The position numbers and the translations under genes are program-made. A DNA stretch of 64,000 bases from Iocasia fonsfrigidae (GTDB lineage Bacteria > Bacillota > Halanaerobiia > Halanaerobiales > DTU029), in NCBI RefSeq assembly GCF_017751145.1, contig NZ_CP046640.1, positions 1,716,137 to 1,780,136 on the forward strand, read 5' to 3'. Position 1 is the first letter of the stretch. The number at the start of each line of letters is the position of its first letter. Of this stretch, positions 10,759-14,169 are shown piece by piece. Under the pieces are notes generated by a model. That model had not been told where the DNA came from. It saw nothing but the letters and a program-made list of their open reading frames with translations, and ran no database searches.

Positions 10759-12945
10759 ATGCTTAATCATAGTATTATAAATAAATGGTGGAAAAAACTC
10801 TCTAAAAAAAGTGCTTCTATTAGCCCACACAGCAAGAAAATGTTTTGGGGGATCTCCTTTATTATAGTTATTATACTAATTTTAACTATTGATCTTTTTC
10901 CTAGTAATGTCAATTTAGAAACTGGACAAGTTAGTAAGCGGGATATTGAAGCCCCGATGACAATAACCTATGTTGATGAAGAAAAAACTGCTGAACTAAA
11001 GAGCATTGCTGCTGAATCAGCAGGTAGGGTCTATGAAGAAGATCGAAATATTGAAAATAGAATTGAAAAAGATATTAATGGTCTTTTTAAACAGATAAAA
11101 GAACTCAGGGATGAGGAAACAGCAGTTGATGAAGAAATGACTGCTGTAGATGGGAAAAATAGAGAAGAGTTAATTAAAGATATTGAAGCCAATTATCCAG
11201 TAATTACGCTTGAGACAATTGAAATTCTATTAGAAACCCCTCCAGATCTTTTTAATGAACTGGAACAAAGGTCTGTCAATACCATAAAGCTTAAGTTAAA
11301 GGAGCGTATTCATCCCGAAGACCTACCTGAAATCAGGGAAGAATTAGTACAGGAAGTAATGGCCATGGATCTTAATAAGGAATACCGGCTTGTTCTGGCA
11401 AATATTGTGGAAACAATGATCAGGCCTAATATGATATTTGATGAAGAGGCCACTAAAAAGAAACAGGAAGAAGCAGTTAAAAAGGTTGTTCCCTACAAAC
11501 ATACGATTAAACAGGGTGAAATGATTATCAGGAAAGGAGATATAGTTACTAGTGAGGATATAAAAGAATTAGAAGCTCTTGGTCTACAGAGACCACAAAT
11601 AAATTATCTTTCGATATTTGGTATAGTAACAATTATTCTTACATTAATTGTTATGGCCTGTCTGTATTTCTATAAATATCAACCTGACGTCTGGGAGGCA
11701 CAGCCTAAAATAATTTTATTGCAGTTATTAGTAATAATTGTGTTAATAATAGCCAAAATAATTGATATTATACCAGCAGTTAATTATTTTCATCTGCCTT
11801 ATCTGGTACCAGTTGCTATTGCTTCAATTCTGACAACTGTCTTAATCAGTACTGATGTTGCAGTTGTTTTAACAGTGTTTATTAGTTTTCTGGTAGCAAT
11901 TATTTTTAATAATGATTATAATATAGCGCTCACTGGGTTTATTGGTGGTTTGGTTGGTATTTTTAGTGTTTCAAAACTGAGCCAACGTAATGACCTGGTA
12001 AGGGCAGGTTTTAATGTAAGTGCGGTTATGGTAGTACTAATTATGGGTTTGACTTTTAATAGCCCTTTCAGGGGATGGCTTGATCTATTGGGTTATATTT
12101 CAGCTGGGGTAATTAATGGGGTTTTAGTGGCAATTCTGGCTAATGGCCTTTTGCCTTATCTGGAAAATGCCTTTGGATTGACCTCATCTGTTAAACTGCT
12201 TGAATTATCTAATCCCAGTCATCCATTAATAAAGAGACTTTTGGTGGAGGCTCCAGGAACATACCATCATTGTGTAATTGTGGGTAATCTGGCAGAAACA
12301 GCAGCAGATAATATTGGTGCAGATTCCCTCCTGGCCAGGGTTGGTGCTTATTACCATGATATTGGAAAGATGAAAAGGCCATATTTCTTTATTGAGAACT
12401 ATTATGCAGCAGATAATCCACATGATAAACTGTCTGCTAATCTTAGTGCTTTAATAATCAAGTCTCATGTAAAAGATGGTGTGGAACTGGCCCGGGAATT
12501 TAAGCTCCCTGAATCTATCATAGATATTATCAGACAGCATCATGGTACAAATCTTATTGCATATTTTTATCAGCAGGCTATAGAGGAAACCAGTGAACAT
12601 GATAATGTTGAGGAGAGTGATTTTCGTTATGATGGACCTAAGCCTCAGACCAGGGAATCAGCAGTTATCATGCTGGCTGATATTGTTGAGGCAGCTATTC
12701 GCTCCAAAAACTTTAATAAAAATAATCACAACCGGATAGAGGGATTTGTCCGGGAATTGATTAGAAATAAATTGATTGAAGGACAGTTAGATGAATCTGA
12801 CCTTAGCCTTAAAGAACTGGATATAATTACGGAGAGTTTTGTTAAGGTGTTAACTGGTATTTATCATCAAAGAGTAGAATATCCTGATAGTCTATTAAAA
12901 GAGATGAAAAGGGTTGATAAGAGTGATAAGGATAGAGATAAATAA
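10759..12945 (+). CDS. pgpH: Seven-transmembrane HD phosphohydrolase (PgpH/YqfF type)
   Basis: Membrane phosphodiesterase; characterised relatives hydrolyse the second messenger c-di-AMP. About 728 residues. One membrane segment (about 25-43) is followed by a large extracytoplasmic 7TMR-HDED domain (about 45-270), then a block of membrane helices (about 285-480), and a cytoplasmic HD domain with the metal motif YYHDIGKM near 528 and the IRQHHGT motif near 590. The ATG at 10759 stands 6 nt after AGGAG; the TTG at 10753 directly touches that site. Order phoH-pgpH-ybeY is conserved. The c-di-AMP role comes from the family, not from this sequence. Confidence 0.92.
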   Translation: MLNHSIINKWWKKLSKKSASISPHSKKMFWGISFIIVIILILTIDLFPSNVNLETGQVSKRDIEAPMTITYVDEEKTAELKSIAAESAGRVYEEDRNIENRIEKDINGLFKQIKELRDEETAVDEEMTAVDGKNREELIKDIEANYPVITLETIEILLETPPDLFNELEQRSVNTIKLKLKERIHPEDLPEIREELVQEVMAMDLNKEYRLVLANIVETMIRPNMIFDEEATKKKQEEAVKKVVPYKHTIKQGEMIIRKGDIVTSEDIKELEALGLQRPQINYLSIFGIVTIILTLIVMACLYFYKYQPDVWEAQPKIILLQLLVIIVLIIAKIIDIIPAVNYFHLPYLVPVAIASILTTVLISTDVAVVLTVFISFLVAIIFNNDYNIALTGFIGGLVGIFSVSKLSQRNDLVRAGFNVSAVMVVLIMGLTFNSPFRGWLDLLGYISAGVINGVLVAILANGLLPYLENAFGLTSSVKLLELSNPSHPLIKRLLVEAPGTYHHCVIVGNLAETAADNIGADSLLARVGAYYHDIGKMKRPYFFIENYYAADNPHDKLSANLSALIIKSHVKDGVELAREFKLPESIIDIIRQHHGTNLIAYFYQQAIEETSEHDNVEESDFRYDGPKPQTRESAVIMLADIVEAAIRSKNFNKNNHNRIEGFVRELIRNKLIEGQLDESDLSLKELDIITESFVKVLTGIYHQRVEYPDSLLKEMKRVDKSDKDRDK

Positions 12946-13351
12946 TAAACAGGATTTAGTAGAGCTTGATAATAACATTTACAAGCTTTTCCAGGAGATA
13001 GCTGAACGGACATCTCAAATAGAGGGATATAATCAGGGTGAGATTAGTTTTGCTCTGGTTGATAATAAGATTATTAGAGAATTAAATAAAAAATACCGTA
13101 ATAATGATCAGGCAACAGATGTCTTATCTTTTCCTATGGATGAGGAAATCTGGGGGGATATAATAATTTCAACAGAGAGGGCAGCTGCCCAGGCTAAAGA
13201 ATATGGGCATTCCTTAAAAAGGGAACTCGGTTATTTGGCTGTTCATGGTATAATGCATCTTCTAGGATATGACCATAAAACACCTGGTGAAAAAGCAGAG
13301 ATGCGTTATAAGGAAGAACGTGTTTTAAGTGAGTTGAATCTTCAGCGCTAA
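12923..13351 (+). CDS. ybeY: Endoribonuclease YbeY (rRNA maturation factor)
   Basis: Zinc-dependent single-strand RNase involved in 16S rRNA 3'-end maturation and ribosome quality control. The metal site HGIMHLLGYDH is intact and fits the HxxxHxxxxxH signature. Length of about 142 is normal. GTG 12923 is chosen; a TTG at 12914 in frame is only 2 nt after the purine-rich AAAAGGG. The gene overlaps the end of pgpH by 23 nt. Confidence 0.93.
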   Translation: MIRIEINNKQDLVELDNNIYKLFQEIAERTSQIEGYNQGEISFALVDNKIIRELNKKYRNNDQATDVLSFPMDEEIWGDIIISTERAAAQAKEYGHSLKRELGYLAVHGIMHLLGYDHKTPGEKAEMRYKEERVLSELNLQR

Positions 13352-13370: not shown

Positions 13371-14069
13371 GTGCAGTTTCATAGTTTAAGTGATAGTTTT
13401 AATTATGCCTTTGAAGGGCTGATTCATGCCTTTAGAACCCAGCGTAATATGAAAATTCATTTTATAGTAGCATTTATAGTACTCTTTGGAAGTTTGTTTT
13501 TTGAAATAGGGAAAATACAATTAGTATTGCTTTTTACGGTGATTAGTTTTGTAATTGCTATGGAGCTTATTAATACAGCTATTGAGGTTGTTATAGATAT
13601 GATAAGTCAGCAGTATTCTTTAAGGGCTAAAATTGCCAAAAATGTTGCAGCAGCGGGGGTGTTTATGGCTGCAATTAATGCGGTTATAGTTGGTTATTTG
13701 ATCTTTATTGATGATCTCAGGTCTTTGAGTTTTTCTTTGATAAATGATATTCAACAGGAAACAGCTCACTTAAGTTTTATAAGTCTGGGTTTATTAGTAA
13801 TTATAATTATAGCATTAAAGGCAGTGGGAGAAAGCGGCACACCTCTTCAAGGTGGTATGCCGAGCGGTCATAGTGCCATCTCCTTTCTAATAGCAACTAT
13901 CATAGTATTTTTGACCATGGATATTGTTATTGCTTCCCTAGTTTTTTTATTGGCTTTACTGGTTGTCCAGAGCAGGCTTCAGTCAAGGACTCATACGATG
14001 TTAGAAGTGGTAATTGGAGCGGTGATAGGAATATTGCTAGCTATAGTAATATTTAAACTTTTTGCTTAG
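13371..14069 (+). CDS. Undecaprenol/diacylglycerol kinase fused to PAP2 phosphatase-like domain
   Basis: Two-domain membrane protein of 232 residues. Residues 1-110 are a DgkA-type lipid kinase: EGLIHAFRTQRNM and the catalytic-helix motif AMELINTAIEVV. Residues 120-232 form a PAP2-like domain with a modified signature: K-x6-TP (canonical K-x6-RP), an intact PSGH, then SR-x5-H-x3-E (canonical D at the end). So the phosphate-handling lysine, both histidines and the second arginine are kept. Kinase activity on undecaprenol is the norm in Gram-positives; a fused phosphatase would catalyse the reverse step on the lipid carrier. It starts at GTG shortly after ybeY, a conserved neighbour. Whether the PAP2 half is active is unknown. 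Confidence 0.88.
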   Translation: MQFHSLSDSFNYAFEGLIHAFRTQRNMKIHFIVAFIVLFGSLFFEIGKIQLVLLFTVISFVIAMELINTAIEVVIDMISQQYSLRAKIAKNVAAAGVFMAAINAVIVGYLIFIDDLRSLSFSLINDIQQETAHLSFISLGLLVIIIIALKAVGESGTPLQGGMPSGHSAISFLIATIIVFLTMDIVIASLVFLLALLVVQSRLQSRTHTMLEVVIGAVIGILLAIVIFKLFA

Positions 14070-14080
14070 TTATAAGTGTA

Positions 14081-14133
14081 TGTTCGAAAAGGTATAATCC
14101 CCGGCGGGGGTATATACTGATACTTTTCGAACA
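14081..14133 (+). other. Long imperfect hairpin with GC-rich tip
   Basis: Perfect 11-bp outer arms TGTTCGAAAAG (14081-14091) and CTTTTCGAACA (14123-14133) enclose a GC-rich inner CCCCGGCGGGG. It lacks a T-run, so it is not a standard terminator. It sits between the lipid kinase fusion and the CorC-like gene and could be an RNA structure or an operator. I recognise no known element. Confidence 0.6.
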
Positions 14134-14169
14134 GACTCTATAAATAACTTGGATTATTGAGGTGTATTT

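Follow-up and report, generated by a model that had tools for sequence, protein, structure and literature searches.

The gene at positions 13371 to 14069 of the window, the 64,000-nucleotide stretch of the Iocasia fonsfrigidae genome analyzed here, encodes a DgkA-type lipid kinase and a PAP2-like phosphatase domain in one membrane protein. The same fusion is found in several phyla, and the membrane topology read from its sequence and structure model suggests that the PAP2 active site likely, though this is not proven, faces the cytoplasm, unlike that of E. coli PAP2 enzymes.

The fusion architecture itself is presumably already catalogued in CDD as cd03383, PAP2_diacylglycerolkinase, which we take to cover PAP2-like domains fused to E. 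coli DgkA-like kinases in some prokaryotes, with an undetermined cellular function. Our protein fits this description and we know of no difference; nor do we know of any discussion of topology or motif changes in that entry. The inward orientation is the new testable point. A literature search on the name and number of cd03383 found no papers, and the literature searched, which covered few subscription papers and included partial texts of PMC5852022, PMC5723303, PMC7413402, PMC12401180 and PMC7559476, yielded no account of a DgkA-PAP2 fusion and no earlier account of an inward orientation or of the moved charge described below.

The fusion gene and its two halves

The open reading frame begins with GTG, ends with TAG and encodes 232 amino acids, and its coordinates were exactly confirmed. 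A Pfam search bore out the first-pass annotation, which had proposed both domains from the sequence: DAGK_prokar (PF01219) matched residues 11-112 with 109.4 bits (cut-off 22.3; profile positions 1-102 of 102), and PAP2 (PF01569) matched residues 155-230 with 43 bits (cut-off 27.2; profile positions 47-124 of 130). The sole NCBIfam match was to an LpxE model, with 17.5 bits and thus far under its cut-off of 177 bits. The motifs K-x6-TP, PSGH and SR-x5-H-x3-E, which the annotation had also named, were found as described at residues 150-158, 164-167 and 201-212. The gene, its parts and its conserved neighbor are as follows.

13371..14069, + strand: whole fusion gene (open reading frame, DNA, Pfam)
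13401..13706, + strand: DgkA-type lipid kinase domain, residues 11-112, with catalytic-type E65, N68, E72 and K90 (Pfam PF01219, fold match to 3ze5)
13710..13766, + strand: linker, residues 114-132, extending the third membrane helix and poorly conserved (hydropathy, model, identity)
13767..14063, + strand: PAP2 half with four membrane helices, in the model 131-152, 166-182, 185-204 and 210-231 (Pfam PF01569, model, fold matches)
13818..13844, + strand: motif 1, K150-x6-T157-P158, in which Thr replaces Arg (alignment of 125 sequences)
13860..13871, + strand: motif 2, PSGH, residues 164-167 (alignment of 125 sequences)
13971..14006, + strand: motif 3, S201-R202-x5-H208-x3-E212, in which Glu replaces Asp (alignment of 125 sequences)
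12914..13351, + strand: ybeY, directly upstream, a conserved neighbor (present in 79 of 80 related loci)

A structure model built from 78 window and locus sequences reached a mean pLDDT of 88.9 and a pTM of 0.53, a value that leaves the relative packing of the two halves unfixed. Its helices span residues 6-23, 25-41, 48-78, 84-129, 131-152, 166-182, 185-204 and 210-231, with a mean pLDDT of 56 at residues 121-130. Among solved structures, the first half was matched best by E. coli DgkA (3ze5; model residues 2-117, Z 15.5, 2.2 Å over 115 residues). Residues 130-230 matched LpxE (6ebu, chain residues 53-165; Z 12.4, 1.8 Å over 100 residues), and the second half also matched B. subtilis YodM (5jki, chain residues 76-195; Z 12.4, 1.7 Å over 103 residues) and human G6PC1 (9jtm; Z 13.6). 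For helical bundles, Z scores below about 13 may reflect a common arrangement of helices; unrelated structures scored about 8 or below here, and the profile match agrees with the fold match. In the model and the profile alignment, the C-terminal half is made up of the last four PAP2 helices, with the first two absent and the kinase in their place. Profile and fold together place it in a divergent branch of this superfamily, apart from the canonical PAP2 enzymes.

Both halves are conserved to a similar degree. Identity to the nearest relative was 78% in the PAP2 half, 71% in the kinase half and 42% in the linker, and identity to five other relatives was 48-51% in the PAP2 half and 47-58% in the kinase half. 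The dN to the nearest relative was 0.16 and 0.18 in the PAP2 and kinase halves, respectively; dS came to 1.05 for the kinase half and had no computable value for the PAP2 half, and we used only dN and identity and no dN/dS. According to the Pfam search, the fusion protein is the only DgkA-type kinase of its host genome, a single contig of 3.93 Mb, which also encodes one further PAP2 protein and one BacA.

Directly 3' of the gene lies a strong hairpin (14078-14140; -25.6 kcal/mol, z -4.7). When the 100 bases at 14070-14169 were compared with the genome, all 40 scored matches had E ≤ 0.001, two of them being the element itself and most falling in its right half (positions 24-78). The left end of the element occurs 16 times in the genome with up to 3 mismatches, versus 5 times for a reversed control. 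The hairpin looks like one member of a family of palindromic repeats scattered through the genome, similar to REP/MITE elements.

A conserved fusion family at the ybeY locus

The fusion was found in two collections. In a sample of 299 genomes of the phylum, the protein search matched 245 genomes; in at least 50 of the 299, the host genome included (30 + 20), the match reached residue 226 or beyond. At least 48 of the 299 genomes encode a fusion with PAP2 motifs, the other two of the 50 (L053 and L054) lacking these motifs. A scan of a named genome collection found at least 551 confirmed relatives, and the best 80 of these, which we analyzed, were fusions without exception. The proteins of these 80 have 229-240 amino acids except in L142, which ends at a contig edge before motif 3, and L131, which has a frame break near the start. 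Judged by the names of the database records, many of which are metagenome bins, the best 80 come from Clostridia (Thermoanaerobacter, Clostridium, Halanaerobium, Clostridioides and others) and from Actinomycetota (Thermoleophilia, Coriobacteriia), Fusobacteria (Propionigenium), Nitrospirae, Omnitrophota and a deltaproteobacterium.

The position of the gene is equally constant. We found ybeY in 79 of the 80 loci; of the 79 that extend far enough upstream to contain it, 75 have it no more than 300 bases ahead of the gene. The sole locus without ybeY (L153) belongs to a record that starts 150 bases before the gene. In the phylum sample, all 40 loci from L035 to L074 (14 fused, 6 degenerate, 7 truncated and 13 unfused by our own labels) adjoin ybeY on the same strand. 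Because fused and unfused forms share this neighborhood, they represent one orthologous dgkA locus, which occurs with or without the PAP2 half. Chance or mis-assembly as a source of the fusion was ruled out, as all of the best 80 loci share it and the gene occupies the position where dgkA normally lies. The gene neighbors are no guide to the substrate, because ybeY adjoins the fused, degenerate, truncated and unfused forms alike.

We counted motif residues in 125 fusion sequences (81 from the set of the named-collection scan and 49 from the phylum sample, less 5 incomplete or motif-less ones). Catalysis in DgkA-type kinases depends on Glu, Asn and Glu in helix 2 and Lys in helix 3, and the corresponding residues E65, N68, E72 and K90 are kept in all 125 fusions. 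The kinase half resembles the DgkA proteins of B. subtilis and E. coli (3ze5) in its three-helix unit, its catalytic residues and its place next to ybeY, where unfused dgkA is also found. It differs from them in the PAP2 domain at its C-terminus and in Asn91, present in 49 of the 125 sequences including that of the window, at the place of Asp95 in E. coli DgkA.

In the PAP2 half, the core residues are nearly invariant: K150 is kept in 124, S165 in 125, H167 in 122, R202 in 125 and H208 in 124 of the 125 sequences, and all five occur together in 121. Hence, most copies of the fusion look like working enzymes. The changes around this core set the family apart from the unfused control PAP2 proteins, which were the best profile hits of a 61-genome sample and lean to the canonical form (30 loci, of which L180 was not parsed and 29 were used). 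Motif 1 of the form K-x6/7-RP is present in 28 of the 29 controls; position 157 of the fusions is Thr in 76, Arg in 13 and Ser in 11 of the 125 sequences, and the protein of the window has K-x6-TP. The distance from the motif-1 Lys to motif 2 is 14 residues in the fusion, compared with 22-29 in the 28 controls with K-x6/7-RP. At position 212 the fusions have Glu (106), Gln (18) or Gly (1) and never Asp, the residue found in 28 of the 29 controls (Tyr in the other). Within PSGH, the Gly persists in 121 of the 125 sequences, and no sequence has Asp in its place. The fusion shares its four-helix core, including motifs 2 and 3, with LpxE (6ebu) and YodM (5jki). It differs from them in missing the first two PAP2 helices, in having Glu or Gln for the Asp of motif 3, and in its predicted membrane orientation, which is the opposite one. 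Two residues after the motif-3 Arg, position 204 is acidic in most fusions (Glu in 98 and Asp in 10 of the 125; Gln in the window protein), and all 29 parsed controls have Tyr there (SRxY); going by the alignment, the acidic residue is possibly part of a changed pocket.

These counts do not support the view of the first-pass annotation that the altered motif is a sign of changed activity or of a binding role. As the family commonly has Thr instead of Arg and Glu instead of Asp, the alteration is not a defect of one copy; by sequence comparison, the changes in motifs 1 and 3 are a signature of the fusion family, whose core residues are intact and whose PAP2 half is conserved about as well as the kinase half. 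In many members the positive charge of motif 1 seems to have moved elsewhere. Among 107 fusions remaining after removal of near-copies, residue 160 was basic in 1 of the 13 with a basic residue 157 and in 61 of the 94 without (nominal p = 1e-4; this and all other p-values given here are nominal, and the sequences are related to each other). Selection for a positive charge in the pocket would be expected to produce such an exchange. Neither position is basic in 33 of the 107, and the window protein (T157, Q160) is among these.

Some lineages have lost parts of the PAP2 half. Four of the 48 PAP2-bearing phylum genomes lack one catalytic residue: in L038, L040 and L044 of family f57, PSGQ and NR stand in place of PSGH and SR (H167 to Gln), and in L051 H208 is changed to Ser. 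We also observed dgkA genes at the same ybeY locus that stop shortly after the fourth membrane helix (L055 and L056 of f57; L058-L060 of f53). In two further genes (L053, L054), the DgkA part continues into a hydrophobic C-terminal half that is similar in length to the PAP2 half and shows none of its motifs; this half is either a PAP2 domain changed beyond recognition or another domain. In those lineages where residues are lost or the half is cut off, the PAP2 half is dispensable. A tree of the kinase half (69 sequences, 116 columns) was poorly resolved; the fused sequences did not form one clade and implied 11 changes, of which the supported branches force only 2. It paired some truncated with fused forms (L050 with L071, support 99/92; L028 with L057, 90/85). 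The PAP2 half was probably lost more than once, and we read the phylogenetic pattern, without regarding it as shown, as gain followed by repeated loss at one locus.

The lost histidines, the cut-off and motif-less halves, and the replacement of Arg in motif 1 and of Asp in motif 3 could also indicate that the PAP2 half is a pseudoenzyme whose role is only to anchor, dimerize or regulate the kinase, or to bind a lipid phosphate. We regard this as improbable, because the five core residues persist in 121 of the 125 sequences, basic residues at 157 and 160 replace each other, and the decay seen is limited to a few lineages, which is how loss from a functional enzyme should look.

Orientation of the PAP2 active site

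DgkA kinases need cytoplasmic ATP and have a C-out topology. The family-mean hydropathy indicates seven membrane helices in the fusion, two of which lie between the kinase loop (77-90) and the PAP2 loop (151-167). Because the kinase uses cytoplasmic ATP and only two helices separate the loops, the PAP2 site should be cytoplasmic as well. We compared the charge of the loop between the PAP2 helices after PSGH, which is cytoplasmic in ordinary PAP2 enzymes. It has 1.62 Lys/Arg and 0.28 Asp/Glu residues in the 29 controls (net +1.34), whereas the corresponding loop has 0.50 Lys/Arg and 0.79 Asp/Glu residues in 80 fusions (net -0.29) and a net charge of -0.26 in 43 fusions of the phylum sample. The linker of the window protein (114-132) has four acidic residues and one basic residue, and hence fits a place outside, where helix parity puts the linker.

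Alternatively, the linker or an unnoticed segment could cross the membrane once more, giving an outward PAP2 site that recycles lipid (pyro)phosphates outside independently of the kinase. An outward site would match the E. coli PAP2 enzymes, all of which face the periplasm (PMC12401180, partial text). It would also better suit the family-mean linker, which is positive, with Lys or Arg at positions 115 (81%), 126 (57%) and 128 (85%), and which fits poorly outside and better inside by the positive-inside rule. The charge of the C-terminal tail gave a split picture: the first comparison of fusions with controls showed a weaker difference than the loop did (p = 0.01), and the second showed none (p = 0.54). 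However, residues 114-132 contain no hydrophobic stretch of sufficient length, the family-mean hydropathy (15-residue averaging) staying under 0.9 across residues 113-133 and falling to about zero at 119-128; the model continues from helix 84-129 to helix 131-152 with no further crossing; and the loop joining the PAP2 helices carries no positive net charge and the linker of the window protein is acidic. We therefore consider an outward site unlikely and an inward, cytoplasmic site likely, though not proven.

Combined with the presumed identity of the kinase, this orientation would make the protein a cytoplasm-facing PAP2 phosphatase tethered to an undecaprenol kinase and, to our knowledge, the first PAP2 enzyme on the cytoplasmic leaflet. 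This full combination is less likely than not on present sequence and model data.

Substrates and proposed function

The name undecaprenol kinase (rather than diacylglycerol kinase), which the first-pass annotation gave to the first half, rests on work with B. subtilis DgkA, which the available part of PMC5723303 describes as an undecaprenol kinase. The degrees of confidence we attach to the several explanations overlap, since the nature of the substrate and the direction in which the site faces are two different issues. Diacylglycerol and phosphatidic acid (or PGP) would be the substrates if the fusion served phospholipid rather than cell wall carrier metabolism, a reading suggested by the best solved match of the first half, E. 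coli DgkA, being a diacylglycerol kinase and by the presence of YodM (5jki, titled phosphatidylglycerophosphate phosphatase) among the best fold matches of the second. Given the description of the B. subtilis enzyme as an undecaprenol kinase (PMC5723303, in part), we find this rather unlikely.

Mutants of E. coli PgpB offer some guidance on the phosphatase half, for which the Ser, His, Arg and His residues lead us to expect chemistry of the phosphohistidine type, as in PgpB and the other PAP2 C55-PP phosphatases. According to the portion of PMC7413402 available, PgpB R104A keeps 2% and D211A 0.07% of the activity on C55-PP, H163A keeps 27% on C55-PP and 0.09% on PGP, and R201A keeps 25% and 0.3%, respectively; the effects of D211A and K97A reported by another group differ, as that paper notes. 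Since the counterparts of R104 and D211 are both replaced in the fusion, its activity could be low. The counterparts of H163 and R201 are H167 and R202, kept in 122 and 125 of the 125 fusions. The same source reports Asp at the place of the motif-2 Gly in C55-PP phosphatases other than PgpB, and the fusions differ from those enzymes in this respect and from PgpB and all of them in the inward-facing site that we predict. As motif 2 has Gly and never Asp, and as H167 and R202 are kept and their PgpB counterparts matter far more for PGP, the sequence comparison leans, weakly, toward a phosphomonoester substrate rather than C55-PP.

The argument bears on a convergent model, in which the kinase acts on undecaprenol and the inward PAP2 half on newly made C55-PP, so that both yield undecaprenyl phosphate and the protein supplies the inner leaflet. 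Helix parity, the structure model and the loop charge would all place the two sites on the same face as this model needs, metabolic logic speaks for it, and it would fill a gap, as no C55-PP phosphatase oriented to the cytoplasm is known according to the parts of PMC7413402 and, for E. coli, PMC12401180 that were available. The protein could thus be a cytoplasmic C55-PP phosphatase as far as topology is concerned, but the motif-2 Gly (121 of 125, never Asp) and the retention of H167 and R202 do not fit, and the genome already has BacA and a second PAP2 protein. We consider the convergent model quite unlikely, about as much so as the pseudoenzyme.

Our leading, if still tentative, explanation is instead a two-way membrane enzyme that acts on one lipid at the inner face and sets the balance of the phosphorylated carrier. 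That the halves catalyze opposite steps on the same lipid carrier, as the first-pass annotation had supposed, is possible, and more so if both sites are cytoplasmic. The gene product would be a membrane enzyme with two domains that takes part in the recycling of lipid carriers or of phospholipids. Its three-helix DgkA unit would phosphorylate a lipid alcohol (undecaprenol or diacylglycerol) with cytoplasmic ATP at the inner face of the membrane, and two membrane crossings on, the PAP2 pocket would open on the same face. There, Ser165 and Arg202 would hold a lipid phosphate for attack by His208; His167 would serve as acid/base, and Glu212 would take the place of the usual Asp. The likeliest substrate would be a phosphomonoester, for example the kinase's own product, and the protein would, under some form of control, set how much of the carrier in the inner leaflet is free undecaprenol and how much is undecaprenyl phosphate. 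DgkA works as a trimer, and a trimer of the kinase would place three phosphatase units around it.

The two-way enzyme could also help to explain an observation in S. aureus, for which the accessible text of PMC5723303 reports C55-P phosphatase activity without an assigned gene; the same text treats the source of undecaprenol as an open question, above all in B. subtilis, and the fusion is a candidate explanation for both. If the PAP2 half does face inward and is tethered to an undecaprenol kinase, the fusion would supply one of two missing activities, either the release of undecaprenol from undecaprenyl phosphate or a phosphatase for new undecaprenyl pyrophosphate, and with the kinase on the same polypeptide it would carry its own control of the carrier pool. 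Undecaprenyl phosphate limits cell wall synthesis and is a drug target. With a widespread fusion whose phosphatase site is likely inside, a single gene makes both the source of undecaprenol and the dephosphorylation of C55-PP at the inner face testable questions.
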